Shown here: positions 34,805 through 42,003 of the stretch, piece by piece
How positions within the stretch are numbered: the stretch's first letter is position 1
How the letters are laid out: every line of letters starts with the position of its first letter
Notes under the pieces: generated by a model
Databases searched by the model: none
Seen by the model: only the letters and a program-made list of their open reading frames with translations
Told to the model about the DNA's origin: nothing
Source of the DNA: Actinomycetota bacterium
GTDB taxonomy: Bacteria > Actinomycetota > Acidimicrobiia > Acidimicrobiales > Ilumatobacteraceae
Direction of reading: 5' to 3'
Assembly (NCBI GenBank): GCA_030645675.1
Contig: JAUSLQ010000116.1
Span: 1-44,479 of the forward strand
Length of the DNA: 44,479 bases
Translations under genes and position numbers: made by a program

Positions 34805-35590
34805 TCAGATCAGGACGTTGGCGAAGACCTGCCAGGCGAGCAGGGACTTCGCGATCAGGCTGAGGTAGGTGTACACCCGTTCGCCGAAGAGGTAGTTCGC
34901 CCAGCGGCCGCTGGCCCGGTACTGCAGCAGCTGGGTGATCGCGAAGCAGTTGAAGAAGACGAACAGCGACACGAAGATGCCGTACACGAACGTGGGCACG
35001 TCGGAGCCGGCGCCGATCAGGTAGACGACGATCGCGGCCCACGGCACCACGCCGGCGACGCAGCCGAAGCCGAACGGTGTCCACGACACCTTCCGGCCTG
35101 GTTCGTTGGTGGTCTCCATCAGCCAGCCGAACAGGATCATCGAGGCGTTGATGCCGAACAGCGCGATCAGCGCGGCGATGTCCGTGATGCCGGTCACCCC
35201 GGCGATGATCACGATCATCAGCGACGCCGAGAGCGAGTACTCGGTCCAGCGGAACCGGTTGCGGTGGTGCTCGAGCTCGCGCATGTGGCGGGCATGGCCC
35301 CACGGTGAGGCGACGAACGCGTGCGCTGCCGCCGAGATGATCTCGAACGCAGCAATGGCCCAGCCGAGCCGATACGAGAACAGCAGGTCGATCGTGGCCG
35401 GCCCCTCGGGCTGCCCGGGCGGCCCATTGGCGAACACTCCCGTCACCGGCAGCGACAGCGAGTTCGACAGTGCGATCATCAGCGCCGCCTGCACCGCGTG
35501 CACGACTGCCATCGTCGCGTTCAGGCGCCGCAGCGATCGCCGGTCGCGGTCGTCGATGGGCTGGTGGGCCTCGACCTTGATGTCCTGCAC
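34805..35590 (-). CDS. Heliorhodopsin
   Basis: The 261-residue protein has seven hydrophobic segments and is a member of the heliorhodopsin family, light-absorbing retinal proteins unlike type-1 rhodopsins with an inverted membrane topology. The retinal-binding Lys is K248 in LIAKSLLAWQVF, and the putative Schiff-base counterion is E117 in RWTEYSLSAS; the conserved GERVYTYLSLIAK region and FGFGCVAGVVPWAAIVVYLIGAG match the family. GGAGG lies seven bases before the GTG start, chosen over upstream frames. No retinal-synthesis gene is visible here. Its role (sensor or enzyme regulator) is unknown. Confidence 0.93.
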   Translation of the reverse strand: MQDIKVEAHQPIDDRDRRSLRRLNATMAVVHAVQAALMIALSNSLSLPVTGVFANGPPGQPEGPATIDLLFSYRLGWAIAAFEIISAAAHAFVASPWGHARHMRELEHHRNRFRWTEYSLSASLMIVIIAGVTGITDIAALIALFGINASMILFGWLMETTNEPGRKVSWTPFGFGCVAGVVPWAAIVVYLIGAGSDVPTFVYGIFVSLFVFFNCFAITQLLQYRASGRWANYLFGERVYTYLSLIAKSLLAWQVFANVLI

Positions 35591-35665
35591 GCTGTGCCCT
35601 CCATTGCCGATGCGCCGGTTGCCGACGCCCTCGCCCAATCTGACATGACGACCCGAGGGCTGCTG

Positions 35666-35694
35666 TGTCGAGCCAAGAGTTCCCGACAAGTTCC
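35666..35694 (-). promoter_or_regulatory. Candidate ECF-sigma promoter of the heliorhodopsin gene
   Basis: On the minus strand, GGAACTT (35694-35688) is followed after 16 bases by TCGACA (35671-35666). The -35 matches the GGAAC core of extracytoplasmic-function sigma promoters; the -10 and spacing are consistent with sigma-E-like ones. A second GGGAACT lies eleven bases further downstream (35684-35677). The distance to the GTG start is about 75 bases. The match is suggestive rather than strong. Confidence 0.4.
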
Positions 35695-36936: not shown

Positions 36937-37003
36937 GCGGTGACAACTCCGGTTGCCCACCCCCGCAACCGTGGTTGTCGTGCCGCTGGAACGAGTACCC
37001 CAG
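36937..37003 (+). ncRNA. Two-hairpin structured element, copy A (candidate RNA or REP-like)
   Basis: Hairpin 1 has GACAAC (36942-36947) pairing with GTTGTC (36974-36979) and, inside a 3x3 internal loop, GGTTG (36951-36955) pairing with CAACC (36966-36970) around a 10-base loop. GCGG (36937-36940) pairs with CCGC (36983-36986). Six bases after hairpin 1, CTGG (36986-36989) and CCAG (37000-37003) close a second 10-base loop AACGAGTACC. Copy B at 41847-41911 has identical geometry. It lies in the 218-base space between convergent membrane-protein genes; the rest of that space shows no gene. Confidence 0.45.
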
Positions 37004-37066
37004 GTCCTCGGTGCTGCTCGGCCGGCGCAGGTTCGCCCGGCCCCGAAGCGCCCGACGCGTCGTGAG

Positions 37067-41743: not shown

Positions 41744-41846
41744 TGCCGCAAGGTTCCCACCCTCAGGGCCGAAGTCAAGGGGTGAGGGCAGGTTTCTGGT
41801 GCCGTGCCGGCGGGTCGACGGGCACGCCACCTGTTGTCTCCGCGAA

Positions 41847-41911
41847 GGCGGTAACGCTGGTTGTCATACCCCGCAACCGCAGTTGTCGCCCTGCTGGAAG
41901 GAGGACCCCGG
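41847..41911 (+). ncRNA. Two-hairpin structured element, copy B (candidate RNA or REP-like)
   Basis: Outer stem GGCGGTAAC (41847-41855) pairs with GTTGTCGCC (41882-41890) using two G-U-type wobbles; inner stem GGTTG (41859-41863) pairs with CAACC (41874-41878) around the loop TCATACCCCG. CTGG (41894-41897) and CCGG (41908-41911) close a 10-base loop AAGGAGGACC. Internal-loop sizes, loop sizes and the six-base linker equal copy A. The wobbles fit only a plus-strand RNA. It lies between the divergent E1-alpha and small-ORF promoters. Confidence 0.45.
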
Positions 41912-41941
41912 GTGCCCCCGCCGCCAGCCGCCCGAGCAGGG

Positions 41942-42003
41942 TTGACAAAGTGACATCACTGTGACATCATAATGATGTCACCGAAAGGAGCCGATGATGT
42001 CAC
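41942..42003. promoter_or_regulatory. Promoter and clustered operator half-sites of the RHH/DUF4097 operon
   Basis: Four copies of the nine-base half-site GTGACATCA occur: direct at 41950-41958 and 41961-41969, inverted (TGATGTCAC) at 41973-41981 and 41995-42003. The second and third face each other across TAA, a perfect inverted repeat. TTGACA (41942-41947) is a -35 with CATCAT 17 bases further. Such paired repeats are typical of ribbon-helix-helix or PadR-type binding sites. Confidence 0.7.

Follow-up and report, generated by a model that had tools for sequence, protein, structure and literature searches.

The window analysed here, a stretch of 44,479 nucleotides, contains two copies (A and B) of a nested palindrome which probably belongs to a low-copy REP/REPIN-like family of intergenic repeats in the Ilumatobacteraceae. 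In total about 35 copies were identified in eight genomes of this one family. Each copy is best described as an inverted pair of putative half-units GACAAC-N3-4-GTTG, the following TC being kept in some, and the pair would fold into a single hairpin about 44 nt long, on whose flanks an outward box, [CG]GAAnnAnnnACC, is often present. No described repeat family for Ilumatobacter, Acidimicrobiia or Ilumatobacteraceae was found among the open-licence PMC titles listed. The present family would extend REPIN-like repeats to the Ilumatobacteraceae.

Copy A (36939-36982, plus strand, 44 nt) consists of GGTGACAAC, CGGTTGC, a loop of 8 nt, GCAACCG and GTTGTCGTG, giving an inner stem of 7 bp, and is followed by the outer box GCTGGAACGAGTACCCCAGG (36983-37005, plus strand). 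Copy B (41847-41890, plus strand, 44 nt) is followed by the outer box GCTGGAAGGAGGACCCCGGG (41891-41913, plus strand); on its opposite flank GAGACAACAGG is read outward on the minus strand (41830-41846), a sequence which, by eye, is also present at an equal spacing in copy C75a of the same genome. The letters, the coordinates and both copies were as given in the original prediction. A and B have the nested-hairpin geometry in common and are 77% identical over 61 nt (E 1.2e-6 when all 4.09 Mb of the genome were searched). Over the coordinates first given, copy A folded better than all of 200 shuffles (z -4.16) but copy B did not stand out (z -0.43, with 57 of 200 shuffles folding equally well or better), so that the suggested comparison with shuffled sequences came out in favor of A only and B counts only via its relatives. 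The corresponding z values were -3.75 and 0.01 with flanks included, and -1.97 and 0.09 for the other strand.

A BLAST search with each copy revealed three further copies of the hairpin in the same genome, which is 80% complete; contig C75 has two of them and C260 has one. A covariance model of these five copies returned them with E values of 1e-9 to 1e-12, which partly reflect the use of these very copies to build the model, and nothing else convincing in this genome (two other places had E values of 0.3 and 5.6). With this model 5 of 15 genomes of the genus, the own genome included, were matched at E 0.1 or better, G002 and G013 by one weak match each. The geometry in the relatives is mostly fixed as GACAAC-N3-GGTTG-N10-CAACC-N3-GTTGTC. 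A wider model (R2) matched 27 of 200 genomes of the family at E 0.05, with clear copies in G000, G006, G014, G012, G010 and G041 (Ilumatobacter coccineum, a closed genome). Among the weak single matches the letters were read for G042, G177, G092 and G003; those in G042 and G092 were unlike members, and the one in G177 keeps only the outer arms. A third model (R3), run with stricter filters on a sample of 397 genomes of the order with few members of the genus, matched four at E 0.001 (G000, G041, G003 and G004), all of which are of the own genus or G041. The copies are distributed as five in the own genome, about 13 in G006, seven in G014, five in G041, two in G012 and one each in G010, G003 and G004.

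An exact-pattern scan of 84,980 species genomes, which may omit records of the own genome, found only two genomes of the same genus and one contig labelled Akkermansia. The strict pattern was found in none of the viral contigs, and no plasmid or phage record matching copy A was found. A pattern extending into the outer box, applied to 41 genomes with the own genome among them, was matched by A and B only. Two pattern matches were not used further: L003, with three mismatches, is coding and was set aside, and the strict match at 6468-6505 of L076, the contig labelled Akkermansia muciniphila, is perhaps due to chance or to a mis-binned contig.

Base changes within the arms were analyzed over 27 aligned copies, in which 89% of the cells are paired and both partners have changed in 13 of 18 pairs. 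The covariation score was 0.350 compared to 0.161 in shuffles, and was reached by none of 500 shuffles, a count that is not a probability because the aligned rows are kin; the covariation was lost when the partner columns were slid. The alignments (A4 and A5) omit G014_C25 and G002 (L063), which have a shifted register; A5 also omits the second copies in C36 and C144 of G006, together with C267, C310 and G041_b2, while the single copies of G003 and G004 are absent from every model. The columns first regarded as an internal loop were among the most covarying and pair in the relatives. The hairpin itself was borne out by the geometry common to A and B, by the further copies in related genomes and by the covariation, both of the latter having been proposed as checks. 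Restricted to the five own copies, the test gave no significant covariation (its score was reached by 112 of 500 shuffles), and the proof of covariation thus rests on the relatives. Template-switch correction of palindromes could also yield such changes without selection.

Chance likeness of two GC-rich hairpins, to which the poor folding of B and the result for the own copies alone could be ascribed, is scarcely credible, since it is refuted by the independent copies in other genomes together with the covariation over 27 copies; the E values of the own copies also speak against it, with the reservation given above.

The changes between A and B had been described as staying paired through G-U wobbles and taken to suggest a structured RNA or a REP-like mobile element. 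The wobbles exist, but family-wide the departures from pairing comprise 24 G.U and 26 A.C pairs in the 27 copies, and wobbles alone do not prove RNA, the two kinds being equal overall. No family-wide strand preference was seen in these departures. Within genomes they are one-sided, at 11:1 in the own genome and 2:19 in G006, and 26 of 31 unique departure events lie on the majority strand of their own genome (p 0.002). This one-sidedness hints at one folding strand within a genome, the orientation between genomes being insecure.

The lack of a family-wide strand preference would also suit a pair of operators, i.e. two GACAAC-N4-GTTGTC dyads in tandem, with a spacing of about 21 bp, to which a protein binds as duplex DNA, and either half may by itself amount to a full dyad in the copies of I. 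coccineum (GACAACCTGGGTTGTC-5 nt-GACAACCCAGGTTGTC). This explanation is improbable, for the letters between the half-sites vary, yet those of one half stay complementary to those of the other (columns 10-12 with 33-35), which duplex binding does not need, and the inner TC/GA is lost in most copies. Few sites are found in divergent promoter regions, and the scanned neighbouring genes had no function in common, the lhr locus described below excepted.

The original prediction included a second hairpin, CTGG/CCAG, after the first. With the geometry of A its four pairs are all formed in only 3 of 27 copies (A, B and C75b), the comparison rate for such pairing being 2.8% over all positions of the window, and a conserved second stem is rejected; the two-hairpin anatomy is unsupported. 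These positions are better read as the outward sequence box [CG]GAAnnAnnnACC. Of 38 flanks, 16 have the motif [CG]GAA within 12 nt and 12 have a longer form with ACC, the means at greater distances being 7% (maximum 16%) and 4% (maximum 5%), respectively; this enrichment is descriptive only as the motif was picked after viewing the sequences. The 19 copies used here include only two from G006, where flanks are shared, and G014_C33a was left out as a paralogue of G014_C1. The box was found 3' of the hairpin more often than 5' of it (in 11 and 5 of 19 copies, respectively), the copies having been partly oriented by the box itself. One copy in G012 has GGCCGGAACCAAGTACCCCAGG at the position of the outer box of copy A, and GGAAC-n-nAGTACCCCAGG is common to A and one G012 copy.

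The genes on either side of copy A are convergent, with stops 90 and 84 nt away. A heliorhodopsin gene (34805-35689, minus strand; Pfam PF18761, E 1.8e-93; NCBIfam HeR) lies two genes away. Copy B lies upstream of two divergently oriented genes, one of which, at a distance of 103 nt, is the E1-alpha gene of a 2-oxoacid dehydrogenase operon. Close to it, at 41942-41981, a sigma-70-like promoter (TTGACA-17-CATCAT) overlaps with both a direct repeat, GTGACATCA, and the palindrome GTGACATCA-TAA-TGATGTCAC, possibly an operator of the following gene, which has a HicB/TacA1-like stretch.

According to a crude codon-based caller none of 28 checked copies is inside a called gene; 12 are between tandem, 11 between convergent and three between divergent genes, and two were unclassified. 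This set of 28 includes G041_b2 and G014_C25, in place of which the 28 copies examined below for tags and T runs include G006_C120 and G006_C267. With a retrained caller the 24 copies in longer loci were 13 tandem, eight convergent and three divergent, and the remaining gaps of 80 bp or more in these loci were 23 tandem, four convergent and 21 divergent. Copies were thus fewer in divergent gaps (Fisher, p 0.009) and more frequent in convergent ones (p 0.015), where the background gaps are not random, being from loci chosen for their copies, and the figures predate the correction that two of the three divergent copies really follow a small plus-strand gene missed by the caller.

No hairpin of this kind was found beside the orthologues of the right neighbour of A in four genus genomes, nor beside those of the E1-alpha gene next to B (its left neighbour) in three, at loci confirmed at 66-85% identity. 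The other neighbouring genes differ there too, so that none of these loci is a clean empty site, and neither a site of that kind nor a target duplication was seen. The description of the element as REP-like is supported by its dispersed, intergenic and palindromic copies and its absence from these orthologous loci, a distribution which may reflect movement. An R2 match of 13.1 bits upstream of the G006 E1-alpha orthologue has many broken pairs and was dismissed as chance; another of 10.7 bits, in L136, lies past the opposite end of the gene. Other, unrelated inverted repeats were revealed at the orthologous loci by a generic hairpin scan.

One location is shared between species. In G014, G012 and G006 a hairpin separates the lhr helicase gene from a small HTH-like gene, at distances of 51, 16 and 78 nt, respectively, past the stop of the small gene, whose products are 51-61% identical; the HTH label is based on Pfam matches below the cut-off, and NCBIfam gave no match. 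The loop is longer in the G006 hairpin. Three stem pairs differ fully, in both partners, between G014 and G012 (CTTC/GAAG compared to GATG/CATC).

Retention at this locus, the fully compensated pairs, the placement of most copies past gene stops and the one-sided departures within genomes would all be expected of a selected, cis-acting RNA hairpin at gene ends, such as a terminator lacking a U tract or a 3' stabiliser, which is not mobile. This explanation is unlikely. No run of four T was found within 15 nt on either side of the hairpin in any of 28 copies, and no terminator-like site was found at A or B. In addition B lies in a divergent promoter region, orthologous genes elsewhere are without the hairpin, GACAAC and GGTTG are conserved beyond the needs of a terminator, and family-wide G.U equals A.C.

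The REP/REPIN-like reading was compared with known systems. PMC12306157 defines REPs as extragenic, palindromic and short with a common consensus (14-40 nt for E. coli), and the present repeats are likewise extragenic (28 of 28 outside genes, with the crude caller), palindromic stem-loops, and short, with a core of about 44 nt and 27 copies that could be aligned to a consensus. REPs usually exceed 100 copies per genome according to PMC2817692, a number not reached in the own genome and closed G041 (five each) or in G006 (about 13). A GT(A/G)G or CGTC tag did not abut the hairpin in 26 of 28 copies; it abuts in two and lies within 8 nt in five. No RAYT gene flanked by the repeat, the REP/RAYT (REPtron) arrangement, was found in the six genomes tested. 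A Y1 transposase (RAYT domain, PF01797) was not detected in five genus genomes, two of which are only 78-80% complete. G041 has five PF01797 matches, four over the cut-off, which are flanked by other palindromes, and the best R2 match there was 9.4 bits. Mobilisation by a RAYT is consequently unsupported, five of the six genomes having no Y1 match and the G041 loci carrying other palindromes. The family is REPIN-like but is not assigned to the superfamilies of tagged REPs and RAYTs, the tag being absent in 26 of 28 copies and no RAYT being linked. The Y1 loci of G041 (L130-L134) have other strong palindromes nearby, e.g. CGGACGGTTTGTCTCTGAGACAAACCGTCCG in L131, and are perhaps true REP/RAYT sets.

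As in the REPINs described in PMC3116915, where REP doublets form hairpins and compensatory changes are common, two inverted half-units form one long, intergenic hairpin with compensatory arm changes. Compared to these REPINs, the family has very few copies, few nucleotides between the half-units, no GTAG-type head and no Y1/RAYT match in the five genus genomes. According to PMC3733652, REPs are mainly found between unidirectional and convergent genes, and CGTC-tagged REPs lack a dedicated transposase; the present repeats are similar as short intergenic palindromes with a gene-end preference and no dedicated transposase, but are without the CGTC tag. The term Actinobacteria is absent from the main text of that paper. 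Rfam gave no match in the window at the gathering score, consistent with the statement that no named family fits, and permissive scanning of both element regions returned only sub-threshold, unrelated eukaryotic or viral families. Integron attC sites have the consensus RYYYAAC/GTTRRRY, which GACAAC/GTTGTC does not fit by eye, and this assignment was rejected.

IS110-family transposase genes were found near two of the seven G014 copies, with stops 222 and 225 bp from the hairpin (L147, 3811-4797; L151, 2124-3307). Their proteins are 33% identical over 141 aa, and one is split over two frames. The stretches downstream of both genes contain, by eye, a similar CCTTGACA..AGG block. On this basis the repeats might be ends or remnants of IS110-family elements, or of their guide RNA, but this is very improbable. 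A tblastn search with both proteins matched no other copy locus examined (flanks mostly 1.5-3.5 kb or more, less at contig ends), and the locus of a 130-bp paralogue of one of the two copies had no transposase match. IS110 is the family most represented among REP-associated IS elements according to PMC1525189, and docking beside the repeat, as described there for REPs, explains the two cases equally well; they are tentatively read as such docking. The likeness to IS110-targeted REPs is limited to these two copies in one relative, where the stops are 222-225 bp off and the hairpins are intact.

Mobility, transcription and function of the repeat are inferred. As a REP/REPIN-like repeat it would spread as passive DNA by means of some enzyme, with copies settling mostly beyond gene ends, where a transcribed hairpin might give a 3'-end RNA structure. 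That a copy has been retained beside lhr in three species could reflect function instead of passive spread. It is possible, though unlikely, that this is an orphan REPIN-like family which is moved by an enzyme other than a RAYT and of which some copies, e.g. that by lhr, which compensating changes would have kept in three species, have been domesticated as RNA or ssDNA hairpins. The family offers a small system for asking what moves REPs without a RAYT, and its copy at the lhr locus of three species provides a natural test of whether such hairpins acquire a function. With the alignments and coordinates, the family can be searched for elsewhere.

Longer dispersed versions resemble bacterial MITEs. 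The G006 copies are embedded in a mosaic repeat of about 250-400 bp, and two G014 copies are alike over 130 bp at 84%; compared to MITEs, terminal inverted repeats and target duplications were not established here, and the core is about 44 nt. The G006 repeat is present at loci L061, L068, L071-L073, L110, L111, L113 and L115. L110 and L115 have two hairpins each, about 280 bp apart, and several G006 loci contain tandem units like CATCCGAGTGCCAGCCGAC. In G041 a stretch of 2 kb (L154, 2490-4620) with hardly any called gene has two hairpin copies and internal direct repeats.
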